Assembly: GCA_900019985.1 (NCBI GenBank)
Contig: FIZM01000019.1
Location: 1-51,916, forward strand
Source: an uncultured Clostridia bacterium
Lineage (GTDB): Bacteria; Bacillota; SHA-98; UBA4971
Length of the DNA: 51,916 nucleotides
Direction: 5' to 3'
Every line of letters starts with the position of its first letter. Position 1 is the first letter of the stretch. The notes under the pieces are model-generated. The model made no database searches, was not told the DNA's origin, and saw nothing but the letters and a program-made list of their open reading frames with translations. Below are positions 39,992 to 45,326 of this stretch, piece after piece. The translations under genes were made by a program, and so were the position numbers.

Positions 39992-41095
39992 TCACTTGAT
40001 GACTATTCCAAGGACTGCAACAAGGCCCAAGAGCACCTTGAGAAGGCCGTTCTCCTTGCGCAACCCGTCAAGGTCTTTGGCTGTCTGTGCTTTGAAAGCT
40101 GCAAGATCCGTTGACAGGGTTGAAAGTCCGCTCTCCAGCGAGGTGTACGTTGACACCCTTGCGCCGCGTTCAGTTCGGAGAGTCTCTTCCAGGCTCAGGG
40201 TCTTTTGACGAAGCGCATCCAGCTCATCAGTAAATGATGCCCCTTCTTCCTCGGTTCTCGACGTAAGTCGGAGGACTCTCTCATCCAGTTCAGAAATGGC
40301 CTGCTTTGACCGGGCTATTTCCAATGCATTTTCACTTACTGCAAGCGATATGCTGTCTACGTCTTCTTTTAGGACCGCTACTTGAGGTTCTATGGCGTTA
40401 AGCCTCAAAACCAGGGCGCCAAGACCTTCCTCCAGCTGAGCGGATTTTGCTTCATATTCACTGACATGTGCGCTGACTTGTTGGTTCAGACTTCGCAAAG
40501 CAGAATCTGTTCTGGAAGCAAGTTCACTGACATCGCCACGGGCATCGCTTATTTGCTGACCGAGGCTGCCTTCCACTTGAGTGATCCGGCTTGCCAGGCT
40601 TTCTTGCTCTTTAACAATTTCTGCGATAATCTTATCAACTTCAGCCTTCATTTCGCGCTGCGTGAAATTGAGCTTCGCAATATCCTCTTGTGCCACTTCC
40701 CTGGCTTTTTCATGTTCGTCTAGGGTGTTCTTGAATATCTCCAGCTCGCTGGCGATAAGAACAAGCTCTTCGCGGAATTCACCTGACAGTGCCCTAAGCA
40801 ACTCGACATCTTCAGGAGTCGCGCCTACGCGCCCTGTGCCGATCTCATTTAGGAGTCTTGCTACCACCATAGCAAGGGTGTACCTGTCTACAGCTCGGGT
40901 GCCTTGAAACGTTCCATCTGCGTATAATCCGAGATAGCCTTTGTCTACAAGTAGTTTCACTGATTGGTAAGCCCAGTGGTCTTGGGGCACATCTTTGATT
41001 TCAGCACTCACGCTGTGGCACGGGATGAGATACACTATGAGCGAAACCAAGACGACGCAGGAAATCATACTAAGACGTGATCTCCTAAGATTCAT
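39992..41095 (-). CDS. exported SLH-domain protein with long coiled coil and C-terminal span
   Basis: The 367-residue product has a signal sequence (about 1-31) and one SLH domain (about 33-90, with DVPQDHWAYQSVKLLVDKG). A long heptad-rich coiled coil follows (about 100-345), and a C-terminal hydrophobic stretch (LLKVLLGLVAVLGIVI) ends the protein. SLH domains bind pyruvylated wall polymers. SLH plus coiled coil plus a C-terminal membrane part is the plan of proteins tethering outer membrane to wall in diderm Firmicutes, although OmpM has a beta barrel and this protein does not. It is the last gene of the exbB-exbD-tonB operon, 37 bp after the previous gene. Confidence 0.8.
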   Translation of the reverse strand: MNLRRSRLSMISCVVLVSLIVYLIPCHSVSAEIKDVPQDHWAYQSVKLLVDKGYLGLYADGTFQGTRAVDRYTLAMVVARLLNEIGTGRVGATPEDVELLRALSGEFREELVLIASELEIFKNTLDEHEKAREVAQEDIAKLNFTQREMKAEVDKIIAEIVKEQESLASRITQVEGSLGQQISDARGDVSELASRTDSALRSLNQQVSAHVSEYEAKSAQLEEGLGALVLRLNAIEPQVAVLKEDVDSISLAVSENALEIARSKQAISELDERVLRLTSRTEEEGASFTDELDALRQKTLSLEETLRTERGARVSTYTSLESGLSTLSTDLAAFKAQTAKDLDGLRKENGLLKVLLGLVAVLGIVIK

Positions 41096-41132
41096 TTTAT
41101 CCCCTCCAATCCAGGTTCATTGTGTTGATGGG

Positions 41133-43154
41133 CTATTCACCTGTGACGACTACAGACCCGTGTTCAACTGAGGCAACTACTGCTTGCCCTTCCTCTCCCA
41201 AGAGGGAAATATTACTCAGAAAGATATGGCTTTGACCCGGGGCTTTCGCCCTGAAGCCAACGGTCGCCAGCTCGCCTGTGACATCCTTCGGCTGTGTCAG
41301 GCGGCCGCTAACACTCTGCAAGAGGCCTAAGTGGTTATGGATCACCCCCTCGCTCCATTCAGACATGCCTTGGTCTTCCACGAAGGCAGTTCCTCTGGAT
41401 ACGTAAACGACTTCGAGAATCGACGGATCAAAAGCCAGGTCAAACCTGACATTCTGTAATCTTCGTACGTTGCGTGCAAGGATTCTGACTATGAAGAACT
41501 CGCCTGTTTCAACAGGAGAGTCCGGAGTCTGCAGGAGTAGCCTTGAGCTCAGTTGAGGCACAGCTATTTCGCCTGCAGCCATTAGACTATCTGTGTTCCG
41601 TGAATCCACAGTTATCCTGTAATCGAAAGTCCCTGCTTCCCCAAGGGGGACGATATACCAGGAGATGTCGCAAACCTCGCCGGGCGTAATCTGGCCGGGG
41701 AATCGTGAAGCCCTCTCCATCGGAGCCAGCACAATGCCGTATTCAGGCGTGAGTGTAGCCTTAACGCCGTATGCAGGCGCACCGCCTGAGTTCGTAATCC
41801 TGGCGTTGATTTTCAAAGGATACGGATAGAACGCATCCTCTACAACTCCGAATGAAGGCGGTGCCAGGATAGAGATGTTAAGGTCCGGAGGCGCCAAAAC
41901 CTTCACCTCACGGTAGACCTCATTCCTCTCAGCGTTTTCTGCTTCCACGGCTACGCTGTATGTTAGGGTCCTCTCTTCCGCTATATTCGTGGTAACTTCC
42001 CACGCTATCTGACGTGTTTCTCCAGGTTCCATGTTCCCCAGGCTTATCTTGCCCCTCGGGCCTTTCGCTAAAGCAAGGCCTGTCGGGAGATTAAGGTCTA
42101 CTCTCACATCAAGTGCCAACGTAGGCCCGTTGTTCTCTATATATGCCACAATCGGGAATGTAATAGGCTTACCTTTTTCAGAGGTTACCTCCGCAGGCGA
42201 TGTAACACCGAGAGCAATGACTCCGGGTGCGATACTGATTCCGCCCATACCGTAAAGGGTGGTATATTCCCTGGATTCGCCGGGATTAAGTGTCCTCATC
42301 TCCCAGAACAATGCCAGTGCACTGTCAAGTTCGTATTCACCTTCCCGAAGGAATTCTCGGCCTGAGACTATAAGGGCGTCCCACACTCTGTCAGCGAGAT
42401 TTCCCCAATTCGTAAACATCACTCTGTCAGGAGGAGTCGCATCAGCACCTATCAGTGTTGCCTGGCTGGTTACTGATGGGTTTGACAGCGAATCAAAGGC
42501 CTGCACAAATCTGGGTATCTCTGCAAGACGGTATACTGTGTCAGTTGTAATCGCCTTGTCTCCCGCACGAAAAGGAGCCCCGTCGTTTGAGCCCAGCATT
42601 GTATCGAGCATCATCCTGAGTCCCACTTGGTGGGGAGTAGATCCCAAATTGGTCACTATGTAGGTAATCTTCGCCGTGTCAAGCAACCCGGTTGTAGTCG
42701 ACCTTACAATACTGAGTATCTGAGTTGCTTCTATATCGCCGAACCTCCAAGTAGTAGCAATACTATTGCCTGCGACAATCTGAGGCCCGGAGATCCTGGT
42801 GCCGTACATGCCGCGTCTTCCTGCACGTGTTTCAGTCGTTCCTCCGAAAACGTAATCATATCCGTCTATCCGGATAGTCGTATAGGAAGTCCATGGCCTT
42901 GGACGTCCGTATACAAGGGGCATATTGTTATCTCGGGGGTTTAGGGGATCGCCGCCTGTGGAATCAACTGCAAACCTACCTGTGGCATCGTCTGATTGAT
43001 TCACGAAAATCCTTATGTACTGGTTGGATATTTCCAGATTTCCGTACCGGGCTGCAAATGCAATGGAATCATCCTGATTGGGGATTCCGATTATACATAT
43101 GAACAGCGTAAATACTGCAAGAATTGTCAGTAAGTGTCTTTGACTTATTCTCAT
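41133..43154 (-). CDS. secreted multidomain protein with C-terminal cohesin-like domain
   Basis: This 673-residue exported protein has a signal peptide (about 1-34). The N-terminal half (35-310) is beta-rich and unrecognised. Two CARDB/NEW3-like beta domains follow (about 315-415 and 425-530, with VVAYIENNGPTLALDVRVDL and NARITNSGGAPAYGVKATL). A cohesin-like domain spans about 540-670 (FDLAFDPSILEVVYVSRGT, TVGFRAKAPG). No dockerin partner or clear anchor is seen. AAAGGAG supports the ATG. It sits 14 bp after tonB and before the SLH gene, which suggests surface assembly or substrate binding. Confidence 0.8.
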   Translation of the reverse strand: MRISQRHLLTILAVFTLFICIIGIPNQDDSIAFAARYGNLEISNQYIRIFVNQSDDATGRFAVDSTGGDPLNPRDNNMPLVYGRPRPWTSYTTIRIDGYDYVFGGTTETRAGRRGMYGTRISGPQIVAGNSIATTWRFGDIEATQILSIVRSTTTGLLDTAKITYIVTNLGSTPHQVGLRMMLDTMLGSNDGAPFRAGDKAITTDTVYRLAEIPRFVQAFDSLSNPSVTSQATLIGADATPPDRVMFTNWGNLADRVWDALIVSGREFLREGEYELDSALALFWEMRTLNPGESREYTTLYGMGGISIAPGVIALGVTSPAEVTSEKGKPITFPIVAYIENNGPTLALDVRVDLNLPTGLALAKGPRGKISLGNMEPGETRQIAWEVTTNIAEERTLTYSVAVEAENAERNEVYREVKVLAPPDLNISILAPPSFGVVEDAFYPYPLKINARITNSGGAPAYGVKATLTPEYGIVLAPMERASRFPGQITPGEVCDISWYIVPLGEAGTFDYRITVDSRNTDSLMAAGEIAVPQLSSRLLLQTPDSPVETGEFFIVRILARNVRRLQNVRFDLAFDPSILEVVYVSRGTAFVEDQGMSEWSEGVIHNHLGLLQSVSGRLTQPKDVTGELATVGFRAKAPGQSHIFLSNISLLGEEGQAVVASVEHGSVVVTGE

Positions 43155-43168
43155 TTAGAGACACTCCT

Positions 43169-43753
43169 TTAATTGTCCAGGACGGTAACCCCGCCGAACG
43201 TGACGTCCACTTCTGTCTCTCCTTTGAAAGAGACTGTCACTCTAATGTTATAAGGCCAGTTGATGCCTTTGAACCTCCAAAGATTAATGATTGTCCTCCT
43301 TGCCTGTTCATCCAGTTCGTAGTAGCCTGACGGCCCTGATACATCCACACTGATGACCTCGCCGTCTTTATCCACTGTGACTTCCAATCCTACGATGCCT
43401 ATAAGATCAACGTTCTGAGCATCCTTCGGATATCTCGGCGGAACGGAGTTAACTACGAGGGACTCCCCTTTTCCGAACTCATGGCCCAGAGGTTTTGGCG
43501 GTTCTGCTTCCTTGTCTTCTTCTGCTCCCTCTTCCGCTGCTTCGGTGGCAGTGGAAGACCCTGTGCCTGTGTCAGCATAGCCTTGAGTTTGGCCGCTTGG
43601 TTCGGAGCCTGCTGATGCTCCGGAAGTGGGAGCTTCTTGAGGCTCGGTCTCATGAGAACCTGCTTTAGCTTCAGGAATCGGTATCGTGTCGTCAGACGAA
43701 CCTGTCAGCACTCTGCCTGGGTCCTCCTGTTCCGGTACAGGTTCGGTTTCCAC
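43169..43753 (-). CDS. tonB: TonB C-terminal part (downstream half of a frame-shifted gene)
   Basis: This frame carries the end of the proline/glutamate linker and a TonB C-terminal domain: PRYPKDAQNVDLIGIVGLEV, VDKDGEVISVDVSG, then GYYELDEQARRTI and LWRFKG. That domain contacts outer-membrane receptors in Gram-negative bacteria. The GTG at 43753 has no good ribosome binding site. Reading continues from the upstream frame if one copy of the 37-bp duplication at 43787-43860 is removed, so this is best seen as the second half of one tonB gene spanning 43169-44285. Confidence 0.8.
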   Translation of the reverse strand: METEPVPEQEDPGRVLTGSSDDTIPIPEAKAGSHETEPQEAPTSGASAGSEPSGQTQGYADTGTGSSTATEAAEEGAEEDKEAEPPKPLGHEFGKGESLVVNSVPPRYPKDAQNVDLIGIVGLEVTVDKDGEVISVDVSGPSGYYELDEQARRTIINLWRFKGINWPYNIRVTVSFKGETEVDVTFGGVTVLDN

Positions 43754-43786
43754 GGTTTCAGGTTCCGGCTCCGGTTCAGGCTCCGG

Positions 43787-43860
43787 CTCAGGCTCGGGTA
43801 CCGGTTCAGGCTCCGGCTCTGGTTTCAGGCTCGGGTACCGGTTCAGGCTCCGGCTCTGGT
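43787..43860 (-). repeat. 37-bp tandem duplication causing the tonB frameshift
   Basis: The 37 bases at 43787-43823 recur at 43824-43860 with one difference (C43787 versus T43824). The copies lie in the part coding for the EPEPEP linker. Since 37 is not a multiple of three, the second copy shifts the frame by one and leads to a stop at 43806. Removing one copy restores one frame from 44285 to 43169. Confidence 0.9.
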
Positions 43861-44285
43861 TCCGGTTCAGGTTCGGGTTCCGGTTCTGTCACAGGAGGCT
43901 CAGGTTTAACCTCTTGTTCCGGCATTTCCTTCTCGGGTTCAACGGGTGTTTCCGCTTCCTCCTTAACAAGTTCTGTCTTTTCAGCCGGAGGTTCACTCTC
44001 TTTAGCTGCGGGCTCAGGGGCATTCTCCTTTACCTCTTCGGCTTTTGCCTGTACAGCTGTTTCTTGGGGCCTGGGAGTCTCCGGAACCGGCCTGCCGGTA
44101 GGAGTTCCTTGCCTTGTAGATGCAAAGGTCTGGGTGATCTCTCCGAACTCTACAGGGTACACAGTAATATGGTGTGTCACCGTTATGGGAACGAGGAGGA
44201 TTACGGCGACATGAAGTATGATGGATACCATGAGGGAAAACCACATATTAAGCCTGTCATCGTTGTGCGTCACCCCTGTCACCAC
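43806..44285 (-). CDS. tonB: TonB N-terminal part (upstream half of a frame-shifted gene)
   Basis: The 159 residues contain a short cytoplasmic start, one membrane anchor (WFSLMVSIILHVAVILLVPI) of the TonB/TolA type that contacts ExbB/ExbD, and a periplasmic proline/glutamate-rich linker ending in EP repeats. The frame then stops early after ETRAGA because of the duplication at 43787-43860. Without it the protein would run on into the TonB domain encoded to 43169, giving about 360 residues. It starts 14 bp after exbD. The defect could be genuine, phase-variable or an assembly error. Confidence 0.8.
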   Translation of the reverse strand: MVTGVTHNDDRLNMWFSLMVSIILHVAVILLVPITVTHHITVYPVEFGEITQTFASTRQGTPTGRPVPETPRPQETAVQAKAEEVKENAPEPAAKESEPPAEKTELVKEEAETPVEPEKEMPEQEVKPEPPVTEPEPEPEPEPEPEPEPVPEPETRAGA

Positions 44286-44299
44286 CTTTCATTCAAGGG

Positions 44300-44713
44300 T
44301 TACCGCACCGGTCTGTCAGCTGCCAGGGCCAATCGATTCGCACCTGCCAATCGTGCTACATCCATCACATCTACAAGCCTTTGGTAACTTGTAGAGGAGT
44401 CAGCCCTAATAACTACGATCTCATTGGGATTCTGCTGAATCCGTTGATTGATAGCGACTTTGAGGCTGTCAAGGGATGTCCGCTTATTCTCCAGATACAC
44501 GTTACCTGACTTATCGATCGTTACAACAGTCGTTGTTGCTTGTTGAGGCGTAGCTGTCTCAGCTCGCGGCAGCTTTATGTCAAGTCCCGCGGGATTCGTG
44601 CGAAACGTTGTGAACAGCATGAAAAAGACGATAAGAAACGTCATTACGTCTACCATTGGGACGATATCGACTTTAGGCTTCCTTCGTCCGGTCCTTCGAA
44701 AGTTGAAGGTCAT
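44300..44713 (-). CDS. exbD: biopolymer transport protein ExbD/TolR
   Basis: ExbD is the partner of ExbB in the proton-driven motor that energises TonB. It has a short basic N-terminus (FRRTGRRKPKVDIVP), one span with the key aspartate in PMVDVMTFLIVFFMLF, and a periplasmic domain ending VVIRADSSTSYQRLVDVMDVARLAG. ATG 44713 is chosen at the family's usual start, with GGAGGG upstream; it overlaps the exbB end by 41 bp. The product is 137 residues. Confidence 0.93.
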   Translation of the reverse strand: MTFNFRRTGRRKPKVDIVPMVDVMTFLIVFFMLFTTFRTNPAGLDIKLPRAETATPQQATTTVVTIDKSGNVYLENKRTSLDSLKVAINQRIQQNPNEIVVIRADSSTSYQRLVDVMDVARLAGANRLALAADRPVR

Positions 44714-45326
44714 ATGGTTGCACTCCCTCCACGAGCAACTTGACGATATTTGTTGCAAACTCATTCATCTCACGAATCCGCCTGTCAATTGCTCCCGTGA
44801 TGAACACGTAGAACGCGTATGCAATCACTGCGATTGCAAGTCCGGCTGCAGTGGTTAGAAGGGCTTCTGCGATTCCTTCTGACAATGCTCCTGCTTCCAA
44901 AAGCTGCGGGGTTGCGGCAAGGACATTGAAGTTCTTAATCAGTCCCAGCACAGTCCCGAGCAAACCCAGAAGAGGCGATACGGTTACCACCATTTCGAGG
45001 GTTGGAAGCCGCCTTTCAAGGAGAAATACTTCACGCTCACCTGCCATTTTGACATCCAGTTCAACTTGCTCTCTAGGCCGGTTTGCAGATGAAAGAGCAG
45101 TTGCTGCAAGAGTCCCAATCTGCCCTCTGAGCTTATGGACAGCAGCTACAGCATCTACCATGCGATCGCGCTCAAGGGCAAGGGCTATAAGCCGTAAAGC
45201 CCGATCAGGATCCTGTCTTGTTCGACTTAAGTAGAGAAGACGTTCGATTACCACGGCAAGAGCTACGATTGAGCAGATTACCAATGGTATCATTACTGGG
45301 CCGCCTTTAACTAGCACATCAACCAT
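44673..45326 (-). CDS. exbB: MotA/TolQ/ExbB proton channel family protein
   Basis: ExbB forms the pentameric proton channel of the TonB motor. The 217 residues have an N-terminal span (VMIPLVICSIVALAVVIERLLYL), a cytoplasmic loop, and two further spans with the conserved LEMVVTVSPLLGLLGTVLGLI and ALLTTAAGLAIAVIAYAFYV. GGAGG lies eight bases before the ATG at 45326; a TTG at 45341 overlaps that site. It is the first gene of the envelope operon. A TATAAT at 45434-45429 could be its promoter. Confidence 0.94.
   Translation of the reverse strand: MVDVLVKGGPVMIPLVICSIVALAVVIERLLYLSRTRQDPDRALRLIALALERDRMVDAVAAVHKLRGQIGTLAATALSSANRPREQVELDVKMAGEREVFLLERRLPTLEMVVTVSPLLGLLGTVLGLIKNFNVLAATPQLLEAGALSEGIAEALLTTAAGLAIAVIAYAFYVFITGAIDRRIREMNEFATNIVKLLVEGVQPYDLQLSKDRTKEA

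Follow-up and report, generated by a model that had tools for sequence, protein, structure and literature searches.

The described systems closest to the locus analysed here are Tol-Pal (TolQ-TolR-TolA-TolB-Pal), the Ton system, the Thermotoga toga anchor OmpA1 (Omp-alpha), OmpM of Negativicutes and other diderm Terrabacteria, and PorE, the putative outer membrane-cell wall tether of Bacteroidetes, together with the vWA force transducers. A survey of force transducers published in 2025 restricts Tol-Pal to Gracilicutes and detects Ton systems, among diderm Firmicutes, only in Negativicutes; it expects further systems stabilising the outer membrane to be revealed (PMC12204202). ExbB, ExbD and TonB were found together, without receptors, in the 2009 genome of H. 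orenii, where a different function was suggested and the reason left open (PMC2626281). The Limnochorda pilosa group has already been published as diderm and spore-forming, according to work cited in two papers (PMC11456536, PMC11448272).

The window analysed here is a stretch of 51,916 nucleotides from an uncultured Clostridia bacterium, one of the 306 contigs of a draft genome of 1.83 Mb that is 90% complete. Five minus-strand genes in the order exbB-exbD-tonB-COH-SLHcc span positions 39992-45326; exbB and exbD overlap, and the other gaps are 14, 14 and 37 bp. The names COH, for a 673-aa secreted protein, and SLHcc, for an SLH/coiled-coil protein, were coined in this analysis. The features of the operon are as follows.

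44673..45326, minus strand: exbB/tolQ-like proton-channel subunit (PF01618, E 1.3e-25)
44300..44713, minus strand: exbD/tolR-like subunit (PF02472, E 7e-32); the longest ORF begins at 44764, the likely start is 44713, and the gene overlaps exbB
43806..44285, minus strand: 5' part of tonB, an ORF with an N-terminal trans-membrane segment, an S-x3-H motif and a Pro/Glu-rich linker, aligned with the corresponding part of intact relatives
43788..43851, minus strand: direct repeat in the tonB linker, two identical copies of 27 bp offset by 37 bp (43788-43814 and 43825-43851)
43169..43753, minus strand: 3' part of tonB, the TonB C-terminal domain (PF03544, E 1.2e-12; TIGR01352, 1.7e-11)
41133..43154, minus strand: COH, secreted, 673 aa (alignment, AlphaFold2, Foldseek, profile against PDB, Pfam)
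42219..43043, minus strand: N-terminal super-sandwich domain of COH, its most conserved part
39992..41095, minus strand: SLHcc, 367 aa, with a signal peptide, one SLH domain (residues 33-71; PF00395, 2.5e-5), a coiled coil and a C-terminal hydrophobic helix

Neither Rfam matches nor tRNA genes were found in the window, and a promoter and terminator scan gave results near chance level. The coordinates, gaps, overlap and domains agree with a preliminary description of the locus as five consecutive minus-strand genes, but that description missed a break in tonB, which is not one frame. In the window assembly the reading frame differs between the N-terminal portion (43806-44285) and the portion with TonB_C (43169-43753), and the exact 27-base repeat sits at the frame break (43754-43851), within the Pro-Glu linker. 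Since tonB is a single ORF in all 18 aligned relatives, the break is likely an assembly error of this metagenome-assembled genome or a recent mutation.

All three components of a Ton motor, ExbB, ExbD and TonB, are present with conserved motifs. The window ExbB contains GLLGTVLG and TTAAGL, 70 of 71 ExbD operon homologues have the trans-membrane Asp motif, and the S-x3-H motif occurs in 62 of 71 operon TonBs, with S21 and H25 nearly invariant in the alignment with relatives. The two motor subunits score higher with the tolQ and tolR models of NCBIfam than with the exbB and exbD models, all below the cut-offs: ExbB gave 83 bits for tolQ (curated cut-off 221) and 53 for exbB, and ExbD gave 76.6 bits for tolR (cut-off 127) and 51.8 for ExbD. 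The operon TonB also has the features of a TolA-type transducer, namely a trans-membrane segment with the S/H motif, a linker and a C-terminal domain; it differs in that its C-terminus matches TonB_C, which judged from its sequence is a genuine TonB-family domain, and its score is below the cut-off of the TolA equivalog model. In a tree of concatenated ExbB and ExbD, the 71 operon copies were placed apart from 20 others with no misplacement (split support 0.59).

The AlphaFold2 model of COH (mean pLDDT 87.7) consists of an N-terminal mutarotase-like super-sandwich, Ig-like domains with CARDB/DUF11 matches in Pfam, and a C-terminal cohesin-like domain. The cohesin match had an E-value of 3e-4 with the single sequence and 5.6e-11 as a family profile against the PDB scaffoldin 3l8q. 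Mean column identity is 73% for the N-terminal super-sandwich versus 54% for the whole of COH. This domain resembles mutarotase-like proteins, the N-terminal domains of GH94 and GH116, and the periplasmic domain of YidC, all with TM about 0.5. COH was considered as an enzyme and rejected as such, because likeness at this level to GH94/GH116 sandwiches, mutarotases and YidC names no ligand. In the alignment, no obvious TonB-box was seen in the stretch that leads from the signal peptide to the first strand. Several Omp85-less genomes encode large proteins that match portions of COH over a shorter length; therefore, the domains are not specific to the operon, but the full architecture is. One such protein, of 2245 aa (L046:7071-13808), has three SLH repeats and shares the COH N-terminal region.

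An SLH domain is present in 22 of 22 fifth-gene members, with no OmpA domain among the families shown. Compared with the PDB, the SLH domain of SLHcc matched SlpA of Deinococcus, an outer-membrane connector (1.5e-11), OmpM (1e-8 to 1e-9) and the S-layer protein Sap (1.5e-5). It is thus of the outer-membrane tether type seen in OmpM; unlike OmpM, SLHcc has no C-terminal beta-barrel and ends in a hydrophobic helix. The helix comes directly after the coiled coil, at the very end of the protein with little or no tail, and was present in all complete operon SLHcc proteins examined except one masked by Ns; two non-operon SLH proteins compared alongside had no such helix. In architecture, SLHcc matches Thermotoga OmpA1, which has an N-terminal SLH domain, a long coiled coil and ~20 hydrophobic C-terminal residues (PMC3387000). 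It differs from OmpA1 in that its gene always comes fifth in an operon with a TonB motor; the Thermotoga maritima control gave no ExbD match. The coiled coil varies greatly in length among relatives, and one operon SLHcc is unusually long (1447 aa, L130:9939-14282). Extra SLH proteins of ~690 aa are encoded just downstream of the operon at L094:12413-14488 and L116:6775-8823, and genome G237 has, besides its operon SLHcc, separate long SLH proteins with a C-terminal porin-like Phe signature.

COH relatives were found in 23 of 41 near genomes, and the five-gene order is the same in panel loci L026-L045 where contigs allow (in L043 and L045 the query from the window did not pick up tonB). In one draft genome the operon is divided between two contigs (L048/L049). 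A scan of 84,980 species genomes yielded 125 relatives, and in the 80 loci kept, all from named genomes, the order is retained wherever enough sequence is available. Chance arrangement is therefore ruled out. Named members are Limnochordia MAGs, Halanaerobiales (Halonatronum saccharophilum, Fuchsiella alkaliacetigena and Natroniella acetigena) and a Hydrogenispora MAG.

The distribution of the operon was examined in an even sample of 250 genomes across the phylum, with full-length COH defined as E <= 1e-170 and Omp85 as a score above its cut-off; Pfam-family searches also covered 14 control genomes. Full-length COH was found in 55 of the 250 genomes, from 26 families, and all 55 have Omp85/BamA; these counts come from related genomes, and Fisher p-values on them are nominal. 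None of the 186 Omp85-less genomes carries full-length COH, which speaks against the proposal in the preliminary description that TonB energy serves a surface system in a monoderm cell. Nine genomes have Omp85 without COH. Eight of them, in families f31, f61 and f72, have ExbD and TonB receptors, a pattern from which these families are taken to be Negativicutes-like; an outer membrane can therefore do without COH. The ninth (G211) is 84% complete and belongs to a family with COH-bearing members. ExbD was detected in 53 of the 55 COH genomes, and in both exceptions COH lies at a contig edge. In the sampled genomes, the operon thus tracks the outer membrane near-perfectly outside the Negativicutes-like families. 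LpxC is absent from 13 of the 55 COH genomes, among them every sampled member of f56 and f63, so it is the outer membrane and not lipid A that the operon follows. An LPS-specific role was accordingly rejected, as f56, f63 and other families without LpxC keep the operon. Genomes of f56 and f63 (e.g. G076, G114, G092 and G161), in which Omp85 and the operon occur without LpxC, are candidates for LPS-less outer membranes in the phylum.

The genome of the window itself encodes BamA with POTRA domains, TamB, OmpH/Skp and LpxD in one cluster, and LpxC is also present. These genes support the earlier suggestion of a diderm spore-former, which agrees with what was already known of the group. The contrary outcome, a genome lacking outer-membrane genes and an operon lacking conservation, is not what we found.

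We give about an even chance to the reading that the operon encodes a trans-envelope machine driven by the proton motive force, which maintains the outer membrane and does not import nutrients. In its favour are the constant linkage of the five genes, the tracking of Omp85, the occurrence of the operon in genomes without LpxC and without TonB receptors, the lack of TolB, and the tether-type SLH domain and architecture of SLHcc; against it stand the Negativicutes-like families that have Omp85 but no COH and the broken tonB of the window genome. On family knowledge and the conserved motor residues, ExbB-ExbD would be the motor and TonB would carry force across the periplasm. The force would act on SLHcc, either directly or through the secreted COH. 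SLHcc is predicted to bind the cell wall via its SLH domain, and its C-terminal helix may bind the outer membrane, by analogy with Thermotoga Omp-alpha; the helix could alternatively reside in the inner membrane. With COH in the role of TolB and SLHcc in that of Pal, the machine would attach, move or release tethers between the outer membrane and the cell wall, perhaps during division or envelope growth.

A conventional Ton system, importing through outer-membrane receptors too divergent to detect, in which COH would bind glycans in the periplasm or at the surface, would fit the genuine TonB family of TonB_C and the fold of the COH N-domain, which is that of carbohydrate-active super-sandwich proteins. 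The five conserved genes, however, include no receptor. No plug domain of TonB-dependent receptors was found in the 90% complete draft genome of the window or in 36 of the 55 COH genomes, although the E. coli, Caulobacter and Bacteroides controls were positive. The 19 COH genomes with a plug fall into two groups: ten have a separate receptor-linked TonB/ExbB/ExbD cluster, and in nine a second ExbD was not detected, so that there a receptor might be served by the motor of the operon as well. Eleven ExbDs in COH genomes are distant from COH, and ten of these lie within 6 kb of a plug, the exception (G120) being on another contig; no plug-linked ExbD was found near COH. The receptor-linked clusters are mostly ordered TonB-ExbB-ExbD, unlike the operon. 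Membership in the standard Ton system was therefore rejected for want of the receptor. Import by such a system also leaves the tether-like SLHcc unexplained, and we consider it unlikely.

The Ig-like and cohesin-like domains of COH would also suit a TonB-powered machine for surface assembly or export, building a glycan, S-layer or cohesin-based complex, and the N-terminal relatives of COH in large proteins of Omp85-less genomes, the 2245-aa protein with its SLH repeats among them, point the same way. The classical partner of cohesin is missing, however: dockerin (PF00404) was found in 0 of 55 COH genomes, and a cellulosome-type cohesin-dockerin scaffold was rejected on this ground. A surface scaffold, moreover, would not require the strict tracking of Omp85. 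We regard such a machine as decidedly improbable.

The genomic neighbourhood might suggest sporulation. In 32 of the 80 loci, spoIIA genes and sigF (as a rule dacF-spoIIAA-spoIIAB-sigF) are found 1-2 kb upstream of the operon, and spoVAC-spoVAD directly follow it in 15, with both neighbours present in 13; a SleB-like gene is the next gene in ten Halanaerobiales-type loci. Loci in which the operon lies between the spoIIA and spoVA operons or adjoins one of them include L068, L078, L079, L098 and others (L054-L133). A sporulation machine, for example one that remodels the outer membrane in engulfment or outgrowth, is nevertheless very improbable, as the complete 2.31-Mb genome G237 keeps the full operon with no SpoVAC, no SpoVAD and no genuine SigF or SpoIIAB (best scores 97 and 22 bits, versus at least 184 and at least 111 in positive loci), the operon neighbours in the window's own family are not sporulation genes, and a shared neighbourhood can be inherited. 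A sporulation-specific role was thus rejected, and in our reading the sporulation neighbourhood reflects inheritance or co-regulation and does not show the function. The window genome encodes a SpoIVB-type peptidase next to TamB and BamA (L047:14007-15917); since G237 keeps a homologue without core sporulation genes, this peptidase may belong to the envelope and not to sporulation. In about ten loci, the operon is immediately followed by a gene for a conserved protein of 184 aa that belongs to no known NCBIfam family (e.g. L090:3375-3929).

To return to the machine maintaining the outer membrane, the operon shares with Tol-Pal a motor pair, a transducer of the TonB/TolA type, a secreted protein rich in beta structure and a wall-binding envelope protein, in that order. 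Its outer parts differ. TolB is absent (TolB_N, PF04052, in 0 of 250 genomes, with the E. coli, Caulobacter and Bacteroides controls positive), and COH has no propeller; SLHcc is predicted to bind the wall by an SLH and not an OmpA-like domain, and is not Pal. Lacking the features of TolB and Pal, the operon was rejected as a member of classical Tol-Pal. Like PorE of Bacteroidetes and the vWA transducers, it would be a motor-driven system, proposed outside classical Tol-Pal, that tethers the outer membrane or transduces force; those systems differ in fold, taxa and operon (PMC12204202). We tentatively propose, at somewhat less than even confidence, that diderm Firmicutes have in this operon their counterpart of Tol-Pal, a tethering machine for the outer membrane that is driven by a motor and has non-homologous outer parts (COH and the SLH tether), retained with the outer membrane and lost with it. 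The idea of a TonB-powered machine that has gone undescribed survives: in openly readable papers we found no description of the five-gene module with COH and SLHcc as constant partners, and priority is not certain.

If the proposal is true, the operon would fill the place of a Tol system in bacteria said to lack any. It is a concrete candidate for the expected systems that stabilise the outer membrane (PMC12204202) and offers one for the receptor-less ExbB, ExbD and TonB of H. orenii (PMC2626281). The five genes are testable in cultivable Halanaerobiales, and they bear on the ways in which outer membranes were kept in place, and lost, in the transition from diderm to monoderm cells.
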